Notes under the pieces: generated by a model
What the model was told of the DNA's origin: nothing
Database searches by the model: none
What the model saw: the letters and a program-made list of their open reading frames with translations, nothing else
In this document: piece by piece, positions 2,443-16,267 of the stretch
How positions within the stretch are numbered: position 1 is the stretch's first letter
How the letters are laid out: each line of letters opens with the position of its first letter
Position numbers and translations under genes: made by a program
Source: Candidatus Latescibacterota bacterium
GTDB lineage: Bacteria; Latescibacterota; UBA2968; GCA-2709665
Direction: 5' to 3'
DNA length: 17,328 nt
NCBI GenBank assembly: GCA_030746455.1
Contig: JASLMQ010000929.1
Span: 1 to 17,328 of the forward strand

Positions 2443-4185
<1,743 letters not shown>

Positions 4186-4244: not shown

Positions 4245-4278
4245 AACGCATCGCCCGGACGGATCCGGATGGATGCGA

Positions 4279-4357
4279 TTCCGTTTCCCTACGCTGGCAT
4301 TACCCAGGTCAGGTTCGAAGGGTGTGATCTCAGCCTCTCGGCACCCCTGCACGGAAA
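4279..4357 (-). promoter_or_regulatory. TPP riboswitch (THI element) controlling thiC
   Basis: The minus strand carries the hallmark TPP aptamer blocks in order: GGGGTGCC, GGCTGAGATCACACCC, ACCTGACCTGGGTAATGCC and GCGTAGGGAA. The CTGAGA core recognises the pyrimidine of the ligand and the CCTGA...GGGTAATGCC arm binds the pyrophosphate. Flanking TTCCGT (4356-4351) and ACGGAA (4284-4279) can close the P1 stem. High TPP should favour the terminator at 4212-4244 and switch thiC off. Confidence 0.95.
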
Positions 4358-4393
4358 CATGTGGTCTGTTGCGTACGGCTTGCTCGTGCACAA

Positions 4394-4497: not shown

Positions 4498-5508
4498 CTA
4501 TTTCGCCGTGCGCTTCGTCTGCCGCCCCGCCAAGATCTGATCGTACTTCGCCTCCTGCTCGTCGGTCAGGATCTCACGGAGGGCCTTGTCGAACGCGCTC
4601 CGGAGGGCCTCGTACTCCTTCTTCACCGATTCGCGGTCGGCCTTGGTCTCGCGAGCCTTCTGTGCGATCGCCTTGCCGTCCGCGCTGTGCTTCAGCCTCA
4701 ACGCCTTCAGCGCCGCCCGCTGGTCCGCATCGAGCCCGAGCTGGTCTTCGATCGGGGTCCGCTTGGCCTTCGCGTCCTTCTTCTTCTGCTGGATGCGTCG
4801 CTTTGCCTGCGCCTGCCGCTTCTTGCGCTCGGCCTGCTGCTCGGGGCGGGCGGCCTTCAGCTCGTCATACTTCGCCTTCTGTTCGTCGGTCAGCAGGTTC
4901 CGGACCGCCGTGTCGAACCCGCTTCGGAGCGCTTCAAGCTCCTTCTTCACCGTCTCGCGATCCGTGCCCGCTTCGCGCGCTTTCTGAGTCACGGCCTTGC
5001 TGTCGGTGCGAAGCCCGTCCCTCAGCGTCTTCAGTGCCGCTCGCTGTTCCTCATCGAGCCCGAGCTGGTCCTCGATGGGTGTCCGCTTCGACTTCGCCTT
5101 GGTCCTCCTCTCCTCGGCGCGCTTCCTGACCTCGGCCTTCAGATCTGCATAGGTGGCCTTCTGCTCATCGGTAAGCAAGGCCAGGATGGCGGCGTGATGC
5201 TTCTCCCTCAGGGCCTTGAGCTCATCTCTCACGGCCTTCCGATCCTTGGATCCCTTTGCGGCCTCCAGGACGGCCTGGGTCTCGGCCTTCTGTTCCTTCC
5301 TAAGCGCCGCCAGCGCCGCTTTCTGCGCCTCAGAGAGGCTAAGCTTGTCGGCCAAGCCGCCGAACCGATCGCCATCTTCCGAGGAGACAACAGGCTTCTC
5401 GACTGTGGGGTCCGACGCATCTAGCGAGGTGGTGGGGGCGTCCTGGCTGCATCCAACGAAGAGCCAGGCCGCGGCTAACAGGGCGGGTACGAGTCTAGGG
5501 GTCTTCAT
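4498..5508 (-). CDS. Lipoprotein with three tandem CpxP/Spy-like LTxxQ domains
   Basis: A 336-residue predicted lipoprotein. Residues 1-20 are a signal peptide ending in LFVGC, giving lipidation at Cys20 (the -3 position is Phe, slightly unusual). A low-complexity linker (21-50) leads into three helical repeats. Each opens with an L.L.EAQ/EEQ/ADQ..AL..LR motif (about 56, 149, 257) and closes with LTDEQxAxYxxLK/I (about 112, 207, 315). The LTxxQ motif is characteristic of CpxP, Spy and ZraP/CnrX-type periplasmic proteins, which bind unfolded proteins or metals and modulate stress signalling. Repeats 2 and 3 are very similar and offset by 108 residues; repeat 1 is more diverged. Linkers are very rich in Lys/Arg, Ala and Gln and likely coiled or helical. 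GGAG lies 8 bases before the ATG. It is the last gene of the operon, 89 bases after its neighbour. Known single-domain relatives are about 150 residues, so a triplicated lipid-anchored version is unusual. Exact function is unknown. Confidence 0.85.
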   Translation of the reverse strand: MKTPRLVPALLAAAWLFVGCSQDAPTTSLDASDPTVEKPVVSSEDGDRFGGLADKLSLSEAQKAALAALRKEQKAETQAVLEAAKGSKDRKAVRDELKALREKHHAAILALLTDEQKATYADLKAEVRKRAEERRTKAKSKRTPIEDQLGLDEEQRAALKTLRDGLRTDSKAVTQKAREAGTDRETVKKELEALRSGFDTAVRNLLTDEQKAKYDELKAARPEQQAERKKRQAQAKRRIQQKKKDAKAKRTPIEDQLGLDADQRAALKALRLKHSADGKAIAQKARETKADRESVKKEYEALRSAFDKALREILTDEQEAKYDQILAGRQTKRTAK

Positions 5509-5597
5509 GGATTCGGTCTCCTGGAGTCAAGCGTTTGCGGTTCGGCAACTCGCGGGCCTGCCCGGTCACATGGACGGACCCGAGGTGTCGGATCTAT

Positions 5598-6638
5598 CTA
5601 TTGTTTGGGTTCCGCCGGCGCATCCTCGGAGGATCGGCCGGGCAGGCACCTTGGGCACTCCGGGCACTCCACGCCCATCGGGCACTCGCCGGGTTGCATG
5701 TGCGGGCGTCCCATCATCCTCCGGCCATCCCGCATCATCCGGTGCCCTCGCTGCATCATCCCACGGCCCCGGTGCCCCTTCCCCTCCTTCCGCAGCTCCT
5801 TCATCTTCTCCTTCTGCTCGGGTGTGAAGACCGCGGCTCTGGCGAGCTGCTGGTCGATCCGCGCGGTCAGAATCTGGCCTCGGGCCCGATTGACCTCAGC
5901 CACAAGGGTCTTCACATCGGTCTTGCTGGGCGAAGCCTGACCCATGGCCGAACGCAGGTCGAGCATCGCGATCTTCTGGTCGGCCTGGAGACGCGCCATC
6001 GTCTTGGCGTTGGACAAGCCGAGGGCCTTCAGCTTCTCCTGCTGCGATTCCGACAGCCCCAGGGCGTTGGCCAGGTTGGGCCGTCGCATCCCGCTCCCCC
6101 GTGCCGGTCCCCTTCCTCGCATCGCCATCGCCCGGCCCCGTCCCGGACCTCGGCGGCCCCCATGCTTCATCGCGTGTCCCCGTCCTCTCATCCCTCTCCC
6201 GCGTCCCTTGATCGCACGGCCCTTCCCCATTCCTCGGCCCGGGCGCAGCTCCTTCATCTTTTCCTTCTGCTCGGGCGTGAGGATCGCAGCGTGCGCCAGC
6301 CGTCCCTCGATGCCTTCGGAAAAAATCTGCGACCGGATCCGGTTCACCGCGGCCACGCGGGCCTTCACGTCCGCGACGTTGGGTCCGACCTCGGCCATCA
6401 GGGCGCGGAGGTCCATACCCGCGACCTTGAGATCGGCGCCCAGTCGGGTCATCGTCTTCTGACCCTCGGTTCTCAGGGTCTTCAGCCTCTCCTGCTGCTC
6501 GGCCGTGAGATCCAGGGCTTCCGCCAGGTCCGGACGCCGCGCCATCCAGCGCTCCCGCCTGGGTCGAGCCTCTGCCGCCAGCGCACTCCCCAGGAGGGCG
6601 GCGGCCACCATCACGACTGCCAGGTTTCGGTACGTCAT
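5598..6638 (-). CDS. Exported two-domain CpxP/Spy-like protein with RGR-rich linker and Cys-rich tail
   Basis: A 346-residue exported protein. Residues 1 to about 23 form a signal peptide (NLAVVMVAAALLGSALAAEA). Two LTxxQ-type domains follow: 34-131 (RRPDLAEALDLTAEQQ to LTPEQKEKMKEL) and 185-282 (RRPNLANALGLSESQQ to FTPEQKEKMKEL), a clear internal duplication. They are joined by a Gly/Arg/Met/His-rich linker (133-184) with repeated GRG/RGRG units. The C-terminus has MMQRGHRMMRDGRRMMGRPH followed by four cysteines (319, 325, 328, 331; C-x5-C-x2-C-x2-C). The Met/His clusters and Cys set suggest metal binding, in line with ZraP/CnrX relatives, but this is inference. I chose the ATG at 6638 because AAAGGAG lies 10 bases upstream and it starts the signal peptide directly; the frame is open 29 codons further. 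It sits 50 bases after the previous operon gene. Confidence 0.82.
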   Translation of the reverse strand: MTYRNLAVVMVAAALLGSALAAEARPRRERWMARRPDLAEALDLTAEQQERLKTLRTEGQKTMTRLGADLKVAGMDLRALMAEVGPNVADVKARVAAVNRIRSQIFSEGIEGRLAHAAILTPEQKEKMKELRPGRGMGKGRAIKGRGRGMRGRGHAMKHGGRRGPGRGRAMAMRGRGPARGSGMRRPNLANALGLSESQQEKLKALGLSNAKTMARLQADQKIAMLDLRSAMGQASPSKTDVKTLVAEVNRARGQILTARIDQQLARAAVFTPEQKEKMKELRKEGKGHRGRGMMQRGHRMMRDGRRMMGRPHMQPGECPMGVECPECPRCLPGRSSEDAPAEPKQ

Positions 6639-6688
6639 CGCAATCACGCTCCTTTCATGTGTGAGCGATCGTGGGTCCCGTGGAGCGG

Positions 6689-7120
6689 CTACGGCCGGTC
6701 CCCCGGTCTCGGTCTGCGCCTCCAAAGCCTCCGGTAGCGCTGACGGTTCTCGTTGTACTCAAGCTGCTGTTCCTCCGTGAGGACCTCCAGGATCCTCACG
6801 CGCGTGCTGTCGAGCATGCTTCTGAGCTGCCTGTTCACCTCCCTGCGCTGGTGCACGGTACGCTCACGACCCGCGTCGAGTATCTCCCGGATCCTGGTCT
6901 CCTGGTCCTCGGACAGGTCGAGATCCCGAGTAAGACGGCGCTGCCAGCGCTGCTGGAGCTCAGGCGCCATGGCCGGGCCTCGACGCTGCATGAGGGCATC
7001 GGCACGACGGACCTGCCTGAACATGGCCCGACGCGTGACGATCGCGCCACAGACGCCGCCGACGAGGAAGATCAGGACGGCGAGAAGAAGCGCCTTGGTT
7101 CTCGATGAGAGGGCCAGCAT
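6689..7120 (-). CDS. Membrane-anchored CpxP/CnrX-like periplasmic sensor
   Basis: A 143-residue protein with one N-terminal membrane segment (about 9-28, LLLAVLIFLVGGVCGAIV) followed directly by basic residues, so it is more likely an uncleaved anchor than a signal peptide. The rest is helical and highly charged, with a DLDLSEDQ...IREIL motif (67-81) and LTEEQQLEY (114-122). That is the L.L...Q/LTxxQ layout of CpxP, Spy and the CnrX-type heavy-metal sensor family. CnrX controls an ECF sigma factor by acting on its anti-sigma partner. Here the gene starts only 3 bases after the anti-sigma stop, so a similar sensor role is attractive but inferred. No His-rich metal site like that of CnrX is obvious. 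Length is normal for the family. Confidence 0.8.
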   Translation of the reverse strand: MLALSSRTKALLLAVLIFLVGGVCGAIVTRRAMFRQVRRADALMQRRGPAMAPELQQRWQRRLTRDLDLSEDQETRIREILDAGRERTVHQRREVNRQLRSMLDSTRVRILEVLTEEQQLEYNENRQRYRRLWRRRPRPGDRP

Positions 7121-7123
7121 GGG

Positions 7124-7600
7124 TCACCTCGGCTGGGATGCGGGGTCGGGAACGGCATCGATGAGCATCAGGATGTCATCGCGCGAGATCTCGGTATCGT
7201 CCAGGACTACTGTGACGGGCGATTCGCCGCCCCACTGAGACCTCAGGACGTCTTCGAGCGTCACTGCCGAGTCCTCCCCGTTGAGCCCGTCGAAGACGGC
7301 TATCAGGAGGGCCGCCGCCACAGCGAACAGGGGAATCAGGCGCTTCCCGGCCCATTCCAGGTTTGGCCAGATGCTGAGGACCTTCTCCTCCCGGATCCGG
7401 GCGTGCACGCCGTCCCAGAGGGAGGGGGTGGGGACCTCCCGCCTCCGCTGGATCAGGACACGAGCGCGCTCGAGACAGTCGAGCTCCTCCCGGCAGCCGG
7501 GGCAGGTCGCCAGATGGGCCTCGACCCGGTCGACGTCGGCCGAGTCGAGGCTGCCGTCCAGGTACAGAAGCAGATCTTCTCTGACACAGGTCTTGCTCAT
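7124..7600 (-). CDS. Zinc-finger anti-sigma factor, membrane-anchored
   Basis: A 158-residue protein with the architecture of ZAS-type anti-sigma factors. The N-terminal cytosolic zf-HC2 domain has the H-x3-C-x2-C motif (His29, Cys33, Cys36 in HLATCPGC) that clamps the sigma factor. One membrane segment follows (about 86-103, KRLIPLFAVAAALLIAVF), then a C-terminal extracytoplasmic region of about 55 residues that could receive a signal. The ATG at 7600 overlaps the sigma-factor stop as ATGA, the usual coupling of a sigma/anti-sigma pair; the frame is open further upstream but only inside the sigma gene. The C-terminal part has an acidic VVLDDTEISRDDILMLIDAV segment I do not recognise. Release is presumably by signal-dependent proteolysis or by contact with the adjacent LTxxQ protein; neither is shown by sequence. 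Confidence 0.87.
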   Translation of the reverse strand: MSKTCVREDLLLYLDGSLDSADVDRVEAHLATCPGCREELDCLERARVLIQRRREVPTPSLWDGVHARIREEKVLSIWPNLEWAGKRLIPLFAVAAALLIAVFDGLNGEDSAVTLEDVLRSQWGGESPVTVVLDDTEISRDDILMLIDAVPDPASQPR

Positions 7601-8187
7601 GACGTTTCCTCCCCAACCCATTCCGCGTGAACCGGTCGCAGCAGATCTCTGAGTCGGGCCCTGGCCCGCGAGAGCCGCGATTTCACGGTGCCGACGGAGC
7701 ACCCGAGCGTCTCTGCGATCTGTTCCTGCGACATGTCCTCGATGTCCTTCAGGACCACAACGGCTCGTTGGTCAGATTCAAGGGCATCCAGCGCGGCTTG
7801 GATGGCTTCTTGCAGCTGGGCGCGCTCTGCTCCGTCGGTCGGCATCCGTGCATCGAACAGGTGATCCGCAGTGATGCGGCCCGACTCGACAAGTGCGTCC
7901 AGAGAAATGGTGTCTTTCCGTCGGCTCTCGGCCTGGGCCCTGTTGAGGCAAACGTTGACGGCAATCCGGTAGAGCCAGGTGTAGAATGTCGATTCCGCCC
8001 GGAAGGTCTCTAGCGACTGGTAGGCCCTGACGAAGGCCTCCTGCGCGGCGTCACGCGCCCCCTCGGCGTCGCCCAGGATGGAGCACGCGAGGGTGTAGAC
8101 GCGGGCCTCGTAACGCTCGACGAGCTCGCGGAACGCCTCGAGGTCTCCCTCCTGGCACTGGACGACAAGGGATAGATCATCAGACAT
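7597..8187 (-). CDS. ECF-type RNA polymerase sigma factor
   Basis: A 196-residue sigma factor of the extracytoplasmic-function group. Region 2 spans about residues 12-87, with the core-binding and -10-recognition helices around DAAQEAFVRAYQSLETF and STFYTWLYRIAVNVCLN. Region 4 spans about 125-184, with the -35-binding helix-turn-helix MSQEQIAETLGCSVGTVKSRLSRARARLRDLL. There is no region 3, as expected. The linker (88-124) is somewhat long. It heads a five-gene operon with its anti-sigma factor and three LTxxQ proteins. GGAGG lies 4 bases upstream of the ATG. The preceding promoter has the GGAAC/TCTAA form recognised by RpoE-like ECF factors, so autoregulation is likely. Closest functional model is RpoE/CnrH-type envelope or metal stress control; subgroup not determined. 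Confidence 0.93.
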   Translation of the reverse strand: MSDDLSLVVQCQEGDLEAFRELVERYEARVYTLACSILGDAEGARDAAQEAFVRAYQSLETFRAESTFYTWLYRIAVNVCLNRAQAESRRKDTISLDALVESGRITADHLFDARMPTDGAERAQLQEAIQAALDALESDQRAVVVLKDIEDMSQEQIAETLGCSVGTVKSRLSRARARLRDLLRPVHAEWVGEETS

Positions 8188-8234
8188 CGGGCCTCCGGGA
8201 GCCGAAAAGAACGATACTCGCGCCCTTCACTCTC

Positions 8235-8263
8235 TTAGACAGCACGAGGGCGCATAGCGTTCC
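8235..8263 (-). promoter_or_regulatory. ECF-type (RpoE-like) promoter of the sigma operon
   Basis: On the minus strand GGAAC (8263-8259) and GTCTAA (8240-8235) are separated by 18 bases. This closely fits the RpoE-like consensus GGAACTT-N16/17-TCTGA. It lies 47 bases upstream of the sigma ATG and no sigma70-like promoter is evident, so the operon is probably autoregulated. Confidence 0.7.
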
Positions 8264-10570: not shown

Positions 10571-11332
10571 CTACTGGCTGTCCAGCTCGCGGAGCTTGTC
10601 TCGCAGTTCGGCCGCGCGTTCGAACTCCTCCTCCTCGATGGCCTCCGCCAGTGCCTCCTTGAGCTGCTCGGATTGGCTCAAAGGCCGCTTCTCCCTGATC
10701 TCTGCTTCGAGCTCATCGAGGGCCTGCCTGGATCGCTTCCTTTCCGCCGTGAACTCCTCGGCGTCCACTTCCTCCAGCCCCTCGATCCGCTCACGGGTCT
10801 CGCGGATTACCGTGAAGGCGGTCTCATAGTCTTCGTTCTGCACCGCGGCCATCGCCCGGGCAACGCCGTGGATCCTGAGGATGTAAGGCCACCACCGTTC
10901 CAGGTTCGTTCGATCTTCCTCCCGCTCCGCATACTGGTTGACGAACCTGAAGACCTCTATGTTGCGCTCGGTGTCCCGTATCACACGCGTGTAGTCCTGG
11001 ATCTGGAGCAGGAAGACGTATCGCTCGTAGACCCTCCGGCTCTCGTCGAAGATCTCCTCGCATGCCTTCCGATCCAGCTGGAAGACGCCGCCTCCCGGAT
11101 CCTCGGACTGCTTCCGAAGCATCTCCTTGTAGTGATCGAGGGCGAAGGGCTGGTTGTGAGGGCGCACCCCGTCGGGGCGCCCGTCGAGCTCCATCTGCAG
11201 AACGCCCTGGAAGGCGCCCTGATCCACCCGGACCTGGATCTTCTCCGAGCCGTCCTGGTCGATCACTTTGCGTATGCTGTTCTGCGGATCGTATGGCCAA
11301 CTCCGCAGTATAGATCCGATGTCCTCCAGCAT
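10571..11332 (-). CDS. UvrB/UvrC-motif (UVR) coiled-coil protein of unknown role
   Basis: A 253-residue soluble, highly charged protein. The last 30 residues (224-253) form a UVR motif, LKEALAEAIEEEEFERAAELRDKLREL. This is the short helical hairpin through which UvrB contacts UvrC, also present in ClpC/McsA-type proteins and many uncharacterised ones. The N-terminal part (1-75) has a small beta-rich region (VRVDQGAFQGVLQMELDGRPDG) and the middle (95-215) is helical. There are no nuclease or helicase motifs, so it is not UvrB or UvrC itself. AGGAG lies 7 bases upstream of the ATG. The gene stands alone, and the next unit on the same strand starts about 45 bases after its stop. A candidate promoter TTGCGC-N17-TAGATT lies upstream but is weak. 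Similar UVR-tailed proteins occur in several deep-branching phyla; function unknown. Confidence 0.75.
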   Translation of the reverse strand: MLEDIGSILRSWPYDPQNSIRKVIDQDGSEKIQVRVDQGAFQGVLQMELDGRPDGVRPHNQPFALDHYKEMLRKQSEDPGGGVFQLDRKACEEIFDESRRVYERYVFLLQIQDYTRVIRDTERNIEVFRFVNQYAEREEDRTNLERWWPYILRIHGVARAMAAVQNEDYETAFTVIRETRERIEGLEEVDAEEFTAERKRSRQALDELEAEIREKRPLSQSEQLKEALAEAIEEEEFERAAELRDKLRELDSQ

Positions 11333-12011: not shown

Positions 12012-13241
12012 GTGGCAAACCGGCGGGGTGGATATCTGACGAGAGCATCTACATTGCGATGGTCTGGATGGATTTCGGTCGTGGTCTGGGCGTGGGCGGC
12101 GCTGTGTCCCGGGCCGGCACGGGCAACCCCGAGGTCGGACATCCAGGCGCTTGTCGACCAGGTGTCGACGGACAGCATCCAGGCCACGGTGGGGCGGCTG
12201 GTGGACTTCGGGACGCGGTTCATCGGAACCGATTCCAATGCCGCCGCGGCGAGGTGGCTCGACGGTCGATTGGCAGATCTAGGCTACCGGGAGGTGAGGC
12301 TGGACACCTTCGAGGCCAGGGTCGATCGCACGGTTCGGCTCGTGGGGAGTGACCCCGCAATGCCGGTCCGGTTCTTCGTCGACGGGGCCGAGCAGGCCAA
12401 CGTGGTCGCCGTGAAGCCGGGCGTCCTGTTCCCGAGGCGGCAGATCGTGCTGGGGGCGCACTACGACAGCGTTGCGCTGGATCGCATGCCAGACGACCAG
12501 GTGCTCGCGCCGGGGGCAGACGACAATGGCTCGGGAACGGCCGCGGTCCTGGAGGTGGCACGGATCCTTCAAAAGGTCGACCTGGACGCGACGGTGGTGG
12601 TCGTTCTGTTCGGGGCAGAGGAGCTCGGGCTGAACGGCAGTCGGGCCTACGCCCAGCAGGCGCGGGACAGGGGTGATGAGATCGTCCTGATGATCACGCT
12701 GGACTCGATTGGGACCCGCTCGGTCTTCCACCCGAACGGTTTTGCGATCGACACCATCGGCCCGTACCTTTCCCTGGGCGAGCGCGTGGCCCAGGCTGCA
12801 GAGGACTACACCGATGTGCGAGCGCGCACGCCGGAGGGGGGACCGGTCCGTATCACGAACCGGGGTTGCGGTTGCACGGACCACCAGTCGTTTATCGATG
12901 CGGGGTATCCCGGGATCGGGGTCTTCCTGGACTTCGGTGCATCCGAGGCGCACCATAACACCAGCATCGACACCCTGGGTGCCGTCGATTTCACGATGGT
13001 CCGCTCGGTGGCGGGGGTCGCCCTGGCGGCCGTGGCCGAGACCGCCGGATTCCCGGGCCGGACGCCCGACTTTGACGGGGACGGCACGGTCGCGTTCGGA
13101 GACTACCTCCAGTTCTCGCTTGCCTTCGGCAAGTGGGCCGACGAGGGGGATGCAGCACGGTTCGATCTGGATCGGGACGGCCGCGTCCGCTTCTCCGATT
13201 TCGTGCTTTTCGCACAAAGCTTCGGGAGGACGATGGACTGA
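12012..13241 (+). CDS. Exported M28-family zinc metallopeptidase with C-terminal dockerin-like repeats
   Basis: A 409-residue exported aminopeptidase-type protein. Residues about 17-38 form a signal peptide ending in GPARA|TPR. The M28 catalytic domain spans about 45-345, with zinc-site motifs GAHYDS (His150, Asp152), PGADDNGSG (Asp170), FGAEELG (Glu203/204, catalytic base and ligand), LDSIG (Asp231) and EAHHNT (His314 or 315). Two Ca-binding loops close the protein: DFDGDGTVAFGDYLQF (353-368) and DLDRDGRVRFSDFVLF (385-400). Each is D-x-D-x-D-G-x-V-x-F-x-D, followed by an AFG/SFG end like type I dockerin or EF-hand repeats. Such C-terminal pairs are frequent in secreted proteins of FCB-type and uncultured phyla. 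The GTG start has no good Shine-Dalgarno; an in-frame TTG at 12054 is possible and would shorten the signal N-region. Its stop overlaps the permease start. Substrate unknown. Confidence 0.87.
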   Translation: MANRRGGYLTRASTLRWSGWISVVVWAWAALCPGPARATPRSDIQALVDQVSTDSIQATVGRLVDFGTRFIGTDSNAAAARWLDGRLADLGYREVRLDTFEARVDRTVRLVGSDPAMPVRFFVDGAEQANVVAVKPGVLFPRRQIVLGAHYDSVALDRMPDDQVLAPGADDNGSGTAAVLEVARILQKVDLDATVVVVLFGAEELGLNGSRAYAQQARDRGDEIVLMITLDSIGTRSVFHPNGFAIDTIGPYLSLGERVAQAAEDYTDVRARTPEGGPVRITNRGCGCTDHQSFIDAGYPGIGVFLDFGASEAHHNTSIDTLGAVDFTMVRSVAGVALAAVAETAGFPGRTPDFDGDGTVAFGDYLQFSLAFGKWADEGDAARFDLDRDGRVRFSDFVLFAQSFGRTMD

Positions 13242-14556: not shown

Positions 14557-14637
14557 CGTGAAGGACGTCAGACGTGAGACGTGAGAGGACAGAAGCAAGA
14601 CGGCCGCTCGCAAGTGCAAGGGAGGGTTTTCCAAAAA
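14557..14637 (+). other. Short spacer with imperfect direct repeats
   Basis: GACGTCAGACGTGAGACGTGAG near 14568-14586 contains tandem ACGT(G/C)AG units of 7-8 bases. It lies between the permease and the kinase remnant, next to the probable deletion. It might mark rearrangement but is too short to interpret. A GGGAGGG lies 11 bases before the next ATG. Confidence 0.3.
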
Positions 14638-14907
14638 ATGGACAAGCAACAGTACGACCTGAAACGCATCGTCCAGCGGATCTCGATCTTCAAGGACCTC
14701 GAGGTCGAGGAGGTCCAGCTGCTGCTGTCCCAGGCAGACCGGCATTCCAGCACGGGCCTTGTAAGCATGGAGGAGCGGGCAGCCATTGTCGGAGGCCGGC
14801 TGGCAATAGAGTCCGAACCCGGGAAGGGTGCAACGGTCCGGTCATGCCTGCCCGTGGTTCCGGCGACGGACCATCGGCCCCCCATTGGCGAGGAGGACCC
14901 ACCATGA
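14638..14907 (+). pseudogene. Chimeric remnant: start of a cyclic-nucleotide-binding protein joined to the end of a histidine kinase
   Basis: An 89-residue ORF with two unrelated halves. Residues 1 to about 34 (MDKQQYDLKRIVQRISIFKDLEVEEVQLLLSQAD) read like the first helix of a CRP/cNMP-binding domain (I.IFKDL...E...LL). Residues about 39-73 (TGLVSMEERAAIVGGRLAIES then EPGKGATVRSCLPV) are the last part of the HATPase_c domain of a NarL-partner sensor kinase, normally GLGLxxMxERAxxxGGxLxIxSxPGxGTxVxxxLP. The H-box, N, D and first G boxes are missing, so it cannot be a kinase, and the cNMP fold is absent, so it cannot bind nucleotides. The stop overlaps the ATG of the NarL/FixJ regulator (ATGA, 14904-14907), as in an intact kinase-regulator operon. 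A deletion fusing two genes, near 14738-14755, is the simplest reading. An assembly error is possible. Confidence 0.6.
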
Positions 14908-15560
14908 GCCCGATTCGCGTTGTGATAGCCGACGACCACGCACTCGTGCGATCCGGGATTCGGGCGCTGCTCGAGGCGGCAGCGGACATTCACGTGGTTG
15001 CCGAAGCAGGGGATGGGCGCGAAGCGGTGGCGCAGGTCCAGTCACACGAGCCGGACGTCGTCCTGATGGACGTGGCCATGCCCGGGCTCAACGGATTCGA
15101 CGCAGCCCTCCGCGTGAGGGAGGATGCCCCTGAGACGCGCGTGATCATCCTGTCCATGCACACCAGCGAGGAGTACGTCCTGCGGGCGTTGAGAGTGGGG
15201 GCCAGCGGGTACCTGCTCAAGGAGGCCGAGACGGGTGAGCTCGAAACCGCGATCCGCACGGTCGCTCGAGGAGAAACGTACTTGAGTCCCCCGGTGTCCC
15301 GGTTCGTGGCGGACTATGTTCGGAGAACCGGTGGCGACGTGGAATCGACCCCGCTCGAACGTCTGACGATCCGCCAGCGCGAGATTCTGCAGCTCATCGC
15401 CGAGGGTAATACCAACCGGCAGATCGCCGAAAAGCTCCACATCAGCCAGAAGACCGTGGAGACCCACCGCACGCAGATGATGAACTCCCTGGACATCCAC
15501 GACGTGGCCGGTCTGGTTCGATTCGCTGTGAGGGCCGGTCTCGTCAGCAGCAACTCCTGA
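14904..15560 (+). CDS. NarL/FixJ-family response regulator
   Basis: A 218-residue transcription regulator. The receiver domain (1-121) has the acidic pair Asp10/Asp11, the phosphoacceptor Asp56 in VVLMDVAMPG, the switch Ser84 in IILSMH and Lys106 in YLLKEAE. The LuxR-type helix-turn-helix (about 152-214) has LTIRQREILQLIAEGNTNRQIA and the recognition helix SQKTVETHRTQMMNSL, typical of DNA-binding two-component outputs. All active-site residues are present, so it should be phosphorylatable. AGGAGG lies 7 bases before the ATG, an ideal site. It overlaps the end of the kinase remnant, which suggests its own kinase was lost and that another kinase, perhaps the one at 16264, drives it now. Target genes are not identifiable here. 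Confidence 0.94.
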   Translation: MSPIRVVIADDHALVRSGIRALLEAAADIHVVAEAGDGREAVAQVQSHEPDVVLMDVAMPGLNGFDAALRVREDAPETRVIILSMHTSEEYVLRALRVGASGYLLKEAETGELETAIRTVARGETYLSPPVSRFVADYVRRTGGDVESTPLERLTIRQREILQLIAEGNTNRQIAEKLHISQKTVETHRTQMMNSLDIHDVAGLVRFAVRAGLVSSNS

Positions 15561-15841
15561 GAGGGCTTGTAGCTTCCGAATCGGGCCAGCAAGCGCCTGT
15601 GGCCCGGGCGTCTGCTCTTGACAGATCCCCGCTCGACTGTTGGACCCACACTGGTTCGCCCCCTCCCAACAGATCTACCACACCGAGTCCCCTTCATACC
15701 CGGTATCCCCTACAGCTCGTAGATCAGGTCTCTTCCGGCCGCTTTTCAGGTATTCACCCGATACCCAATCGGGCCCATTCCTCGCATGTTTCTCACGCAA
15801 AAGAGGATAGCGAGAACCCAAACCAGCGGACGGAGCGACCG
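15561..15841 (+). other. Intergenic region between the two regulators
   Basis: No gene is recognised in 281 bases. A weak hairpin (CGGGCCA at 15582-15588, TGGCCCG at 15600-15606) lies 22 bases after the regulator stop and may terminate it, without a clean T-tract. TTGACA at 15618-15623 resembles a -35 element, but the sequence 17 bases later (TGGACC) is a poor -10. The lower-GC stretch from about 15650 probably holds the promoter of the next operon. Confidence 0.35.
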
Positions 15842-16267
15842 ATGGCAGATGGTCTTCCCCGAAAAGGGAACGAGCCGGGATCCGGCCCGAACCCTGTCCC
15901 GGCGGCTACACGTGTGCTGCTGGTAGACGATCACCGGCCGTTCCTGGTCTCCTTGGGCAGGTTTCTCGAGGCCGTGCCCGATATCGAGGTCGTGGGTGTC
16001 GCGACCTCTGGGTTGGCAGCACTGGAGAAGGTGGACACCCTCCAGCCCGACCTGGTTCTGATGGACGTGCGCATGCCGGAGATGGACGGCCTCGAGTCAA
16101 CCCGGCGCCTGAAGGCGCGTTCGAGATCGACTCGGGTGGTGATCTTGACGATTTACGACTGCGGGGACTACAGGCACCAGGCAAGCCAGGCGGGGGCGGA
16201 CGGGTTCGTGTCGAAGGCGGACCTGGGGATACGGCTTCTGCCGCTGATAGAGGAGGTTGTGGGATGA
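15842..16267 (+). CDS. Receiver-only (CheY-like) response regulator
   Basis: A 141-residue protein of one receiver domain (about 23-140) after a 22-residue Gly/Pro/Asn-rich N-terminal tail. The phosphorylation site is complete: Asp29/Asp30 (LLVDDH), Asp75 (LVLMDVRMPEMDG), Thr103 (ILTIYD) and Lys125 (FVSKAD). It resembles the receiver half of NarL-type regulators (VDDH, SKAD) but stops where the linker and LuxR HTH would begin. It therefore cannot bind DNA by itself and would act by protein contact or as a phosphate relay or sink. The ATG at 15842 has GGAG 6 bases upstream; the frame is open further 5' without a Shine-Dalgarno. It overlaps the histidine kinase start by ATGA, so both are made together. 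It could be a CheY-type output or a truncated regulator; no frameshift evidence. Confidence 0.88.
   Translation: MADGLPRKGNEPGSGPNPVPAATRVLLVDDHRPFLVSLGRFLEAVPDIEVVGVATSGLAALEKVDTLQPDLVLMDVRMPEMDGLESTRRLKARSRSTRVVILTIYDCGDYRHQASQAGADGFVSKADLGIRLLPLIEEVVG

Follow-up and report, generated by a model that had tools for sequence, protein, structure and literature searches.

What could a single extracytoplasmic function (ECF) sigma factor require three proteins of the LTxxQ type for? The question is raised by a locus on contig JASLMQ010000929.1 of a Candidatus Latescibacterota bacterium (assembly GCA_030746455.1), which was analysed over its whole stretch of 17,328 nucleotides, termed the window in the following. 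Here, the genes for an ECF sigma factor and a zf-HC2 anti-sigma factor are followed by three genes for LTxxQ-type proteins, called L1, L2 and L3 (Table 1). Judged from the sequence, we are confident that these genes constitute a sigma/anti-sigma operon with LTxxQ-type proteins, which is probably autoregulated. Most likely, L1 is a partner of the anti-sigma factor, and L2 and L3 are chaperone or metal-buffering outputs. The layout as such is known from cnrYXH, cirYZ-spy and rpoE8 with one such protein each; the new part is the set of three proteins with six domains.

The sigma/anti-sigma pair and the predicted operon

The sigma factor matched the Pfam domains Sigma70_r2 (4.1e-17) and r4_2 (1e-20), both over cut-off, and the NCBIfam model TIGR02937 of the ECF superfamily (114.7 bits, cut-off 42.9). 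Among the subfamily models, PRK11922, RpoE and SigM scored best, each below its own cut-off. The product of the second gene matched zf-HC2 (1.2e-9, 38.5 bits versus a cut-off of 22.2) and is predicted to be the anti-sigma factor that binds and inhibits the adjacent sigma factor. An alignment of 8 sequences was employed, consisting of the window copy, three relatives at 74-78% and four at 44-48% identity. H29, C33 and C36 of the His-x3-Cys-x2-Cys zinc motif were invariant in all 8. Only one stretch of the protein, around residues 88-106, is hydrophobic (2.39 on the 19-residue scale). It is followed by a C-terminal tail of about 54 residues, which is acidic throughout the alignment (charge -9 to -12 in 8 of 8) and partly conserved (NGED, TLED). 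The entry P0006 was excluded, being the window's protein in a shorter copy. It represents a 94-residue form of the anti-sigma factor (7124-7408, minus strand) beginning at the GTG codon of Val65, perhaps due to a cut contig or a different start call.

The initial annotation had described five genes on one strand with an ATGA overlap and a 3-base gap, headed by an ECF-type promoter and closed by a strong terminator. All five genes were found on the minus strand, with an ATGA overlap between the end of the sigma gene and the beginning of the anti-sigma gene and with gaps of 3 bases between anti-sigma factor and L1, 50 bases between L1 and L2, and 89 bases between L2 and L3. Purine-rich, Shine-Dalgarno-like stretches were read by eye upstream of the gene starts. 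Since the one belonging to L1 falls within the coding region of the anti-sigma factor, the two genes are likely to be translationally coupled. Neither of the two longer gaps folded better than shuffled sequences (z 0.24 and 0.28), so that a single transcript for the five genes is plausible, and the gaps before L2 and L3 contained no match to any of four promoter patterns.

The promoter was found again as a sigma-E-like site, GGAAC-N18-GTCTAA, which we take to fit the sigma-E consensus and which is separated by 47 bases from the sigma start codon. This pattern, written after the site had been read, had one match in the window, compared to a mean of 0.03 in shuffled sequences (5 of 200 shuffles had one). 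A looser promoter pattern was uninformative, with 5 matches in the window versus 3.05 expected and as many in 42 of 200 shuffles. Concerning the terminator, the stem behind L3 stood up well (-26.6 kcal/mol, z -5.6, none of 200 shuffles as good), but its T tract, TTCTCTTT, is mediocre to poor, and "strong" holds for the stem only. Terminator-like patterns were not more frequent in the window than by chance (3 versus 3.1 expected).

Table 1. Features of the locus, with positions in the window.
Feature	Position	Strand	Basis
ECF-type promoter-like site GGAAC-N18-GTCTAA	8235..8263	-	single match in the window
ECF sigma factor, 196 residues	7597..8187	-	Pfam and NCBIfam models
zf-HC2 anti-sigma factor (predicted), 158 residues	7124..7600	-	Pfam, hydropathy, tail charge, alignment with 7 relatives
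L1, membrane-anchored, 143 residues, Arg-rich, one short LTxxQ pair	6689..7120	-	Spy profile match, likeness to L3a; below Pfam cut-off
L2, 346 residues, signal peptide, two LTxxQ/Metal_resist domains	5598..6638	-	Pfam LTXXQ and Metal_resist, domain models, tail alignment
L3, lipoprotein, 336 residues, three LTxxQ domains	4498..5508	-	Pfam LTXXQ, domain comparison
Terminator-like hairpin 3' of L3	4437..4464	-	folding versus shuffles

Architecture of the three LTxxQ-type proteins

As initially proposed, the three proteins differ in topology and domain number, with one domain at a membrane anchor, two in an exported protein and three in a lipoprotein (signals assigned by eye). Their common assignment to the LTxxQ family by hidden Markov models held outright for L2 and L3, which exceeded the cut-off, but for L1 only indirectly via a Spy profile and its likeness to L3.

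L2 matched Pfam LTXXQ (6.2e-13, 49.8 versus 24.3 bits) as well as Metal_resist (3.9e-10). Behind a signal peptide recognized by eye, it carries two domains of 55% mutual identity joined by an RG/Met-rich linker. The motif pairs are 76 residues apart in each domain, compared to 45-55 residues in L1 and L3. Linker and tail are Met-rich, and the tail contains a C-x5-C-x2-C-x2-C motif and a preceding His-Met, both conserved in all 3 sequences aligned (63-67% identity). For this alignment, the homologue search scored the 7991 candidates sharing most words, and P0013-P0016 were left out (31-33% identity over 29-40% of the query). Models of the L2 domains resemble the hairpins of ZraP and CnrX, including 3lay, with no Foldseek row under E 0.001. 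From its family and the modelled helical hairpin, L2 is predicted to be ZraP-like, with a role in metal binding and in preventing aggregation. The four-Cys tail is the best candidate for a soft-metal site; alternatively, its Cys residues could form disulphides.

L3 carries a lipobox, LFVGC (by eye), in front of its three domains and matched Pfam LTXXQ with 9.8e-11 (42.7 versus 24.3 bits). Its last two domains are 62% identical in protein and share 197 of 270 bases in DNA.

In L1, a membrane helix is combined with a single short domain, in which LSEDQ and LTEEQ are 45 residues apart. It remained under the cut-off of Pfam LTXXQ (PF07813; E 0.077, 14.2 versus 24.3 bits), as did its homologues P0001 (14.1 bits) and P0002 (16.5 bits). 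A profile built from these three sequences found Spy in the PDB with E 0.002 (L1 alone, E 0.065), and the NCBIfam Spy model matched L1 with E 1.8e-4, at 21.9 of 174 bits. L1, P0001 and P0002 were each compared with the three L3 domains, and in all 9 pairs no more than 1 of 500 shuffles scored as well. For L1 and L3a the score was 65 (0 of 500 shuffles as good), whereas 124 stretches taken from six further proteins of the window reached 36 at best against L1. L1 is treated here as a divergent short relative of the L3 domains, with its LTXXQ membership below proof. Derivation as a copy of L2 was also considered and rejected for weak likeness, with shuffles as good per 500, in comparisons with the L2 domains, numbering 16 and 93 for L1, 21 and 4 for P0001, and 5 and 12 for P0002. 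The structure model of L1 is helical, at low confidence (predicted local distance difference test 63.4). A Cys residue in the membrane helix (Cys24; 7049-7051, minus strand) occurs in all 3 sequences; by eye, the preceding residues do not form a lipobox.

The soluble part of L1 is basic (+10 to +13), and L2 and L3 are basic as well. The metal ligands of CnrX include His. In the three sequences compared, the soluble part of L1 has no Cys and only one His, which is absent from both homologues; Met44 is kept in them. L1 was not matched by Metal_resist even with E values of up to 1 allowed, and a profile comparison of L1 with CnrX yielded a probability of 1.1% with the membrane helix alone aligned. 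Since only this helix was matched, a MAFFT alignment of L1 with CnrX (27% identity) was not trusted. Without Cys or a conserved His in its soluble part, L1 is not supported as a CnrX-like metal sensor, although Asp/Glu ligands are conceivable.

Proposed mechanism, known systems and alternatives

We propose an autoregulated envelope-stress operon in which L1 steadies the anti-sigma factor and L2 and L3 are the outputs, and assign a probability of about 0.55 to this model as a whole. At rest, the anti-sigma factor would keep the sigma factor at the inner membrane. L1, whose gene starts 3 bases behind that of the anti-sigma factor, would be tethered beside it, with the Arg-rich helical domain steadying the acidic periplasmic tail. 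Stress, in the form of unfolded envelope proteins or of a soft metal unfolding them, would pull L1 off or expose the tail, and the freed sigma factor would transcribe its own operon. In the periplasm, L2 may then act as a ZraP-like chaperone with a metal-holding Met/His/Cys tail and L3, anchored by its lipid, as a threefold Spy-like holder. Both would absorb the signal and thereby bring the system back to rest, comparable to the resetting of the Cpx system by CpxP. L1 fits as partner of the anti-sigma factor because of the opposite charges, the gene coupling and the membrane anchor. From these features, and from the place that CnrX and RseB take in their systems, we infer that L1 may tune the anti-sigma factor. 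As L2 and L3 are also basic and CnrX has a charge of -4, the charges by themselves are weak evidence. Besides the window's own tail, a probable L1 counterpart could be assigned to only one of the 8 aligned tails, that of P0005 (with P0001, from equal contig count and length).

The cnrYXH genes on plasmid pMOL28 of Cupriavidus metallidurans likewise combine an ECF sigma factor, an anti-sigma factor and a membrane-anchored periplasmic helical protein in a tight cluster. CnrX is described as acting on the sigma factor via CnrY and as sensing Co and Ni, with Met123 among the ligands (PMC7689651). In contrast, the gene order is Y-X-H there and sigma, anti-sigma, L1 here, CnrY is reported as a class II anti-sigma factor (PMC8103513) and not a zf-HC2 protein, CnrX matches Metal_resist with 7.5e-26 while L1 does not match it, and efflux genes (cnrCBA) are located downstream instead of LTxxQ genes. 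In the CirY/CirZ-Spy system of Phocaeicola vulgatus, an ECF sigma factor and an anti-sigma factor are reported with a co-transcribed Spy-like gene controlled by the sigma factor, and deletion of the anti-sigma factor raised sigma and spy in RNA-seq (PMC13114119). There, the pair has a single Spy-like gene, compared to three LTxxQ-type genes with 1, 2 and 3 domains here, one of them for a membrane-anchored protein. Similarly, the RpoE8 operon of Azospirillum brasilense is described as including a "periplasmic heavy metal sensor" as the only such protein, and a middle gene called hypothetical (PMC12826043). An LTxxQ protein of Sinorhizobium reportedly goes with a two-component system and not with a sigma factor (PMC2912261). 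With ZraP, Spy and CpxP, L3 shares the Pfam family and the L2 domains share both the family and the helical-hairpin fold, but L2 differs from them as a tandem duplicate with linker, four-Cys tail and widely spaced motif pairs. An operon in which one ECF sigma factor is followed by more than one LTxxQ protein was not described among the matches listed, which comprised titles and starts of abstracts, with most subscription papers outside.

The close coupling of the same kinds of partners as in cnrY-cnrX-cnrH on pMOL28 might also point to a metal-response operon, in which metal in the periplasm is detected by one LTxxQ protein, leading to release of the sigma factor, and is then bound by the products. 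L2 would suit such an operon well with its Metal_resist match, domain models like CnrX and ZraP and conserved four-Cys, His-Met tail. Nevertheless, we consider this rather doubtful: L1, in the position of the sensor, shows the ligand-poor soluble part described above (apart from Met44 and possible Asp/Glu ligands), the profile likeness to CnrX is confined to the membrane helix, and none of 8 scanned neighbouring proteins matched a metal-resistance family, the one at 403-1740 being an MFS (major facilitator superfamily)/ATG22-type transporter with no substrate assigned. If the LTxxQ proteins were instead plain outputs of the sigma factor, the signal would be carried by RseA-like proteolysis of the anti-sigma factor alone, and none of them would contact it. 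Spy is described as such an output of CirY in Phocaeicola (PMC13114119), and the tail motifs of the anti-sigma factor are kept in 7 of 7 relatives, even though four are only 44-48% identical, as for a protease or ligand site. The membrane helix of L1 and its gene coupling, needless for a free chaperone, together with the opposite charges make this explanation quite unlikely.

The Arg-rich domain of L1 could also lie in the cytoplasm and influence sigma and anti-sigma factor from there. With 7 Arg and 1 Asp among residues 30-47, compared to 2 basic residues in front of the helix, the positive-inside rule would favour this orientation. However, L2 with its signal peptide and L3 with its lipobox are basic too, so that a positive charge is nothing unusual for exported domains in this operon, and Spy, CpxP and CnrX are periplasmic; we regard a cytoplasmic L1 as highly improbable. 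Returning to L1 as a periplasmic partner of the anti-sigma factor, a graded arrangement may be imagined: L1, Spy-type, membrane-tethered and devoid of a metal site, would hold the anti-sigma factor, L3 and a metal-capturing L2 would compete for the same signal, with five output domains against one resetting the sensor, and the L1 and L3 domains would have a recent common origin inside the operon. We put this forward as a tentative and, on balance, unlikely proposal. Should L1 control the anti-sigma factor without binding metal, it would form a bridge between the CnrX-type arrangement and chaperone sensing of the Spy type, and illustrate how a periplasmic chaperone fold turns into a regulator of a sigma factor. 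As natural constructs, the tandem proteins have their Spy-like domains already linked, and one of them carries a probable soft-metal tail.

Search for relatives and neighbouring features

Scans of further sequence collections used few exact peptide patterns, and missing hits do not imply absence. With this limit, 338 pattern matches for L1 and 32 for the anti-sigma alignment in genome contigs and 529 in one A3 scan of viral contigs gave 0 confirmed cases each. A tblastn search of plasmids with L3, L2 and the anti-sigma factor yielded no match for any of them (L1 was not included). The sigma factor matched 859 plasmid records, all below 60% identity; the single record examined, a Gemmatirosa plasmid, had no LTXXQ match.

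Elsewhere in the window, a thiamine pyrophosphate (TPP) riboswitch (4269-4359, minus strand; 64.1 bits versus a gathering cut-off of 54.3) precedes thiC (2443-4155), as expected. Apart from a UvrB/UvrC motif at its C-terminus, a 253-residue protein (10571-11332, minus strand) matched nothing in Pfam at E 0.001. An M28 peptidase (12012-13241, plus strand) ends in two dockerin-like or calcium-binding-like repeats (DFDGDG and DLDRDG, by eye), a tail that hinted at Latescibacterota as host phylum. Finally, two response-regulator genes are located near each other at 14574-16267 (plus strand), the first with a LuxR-type DNA-binding domain.
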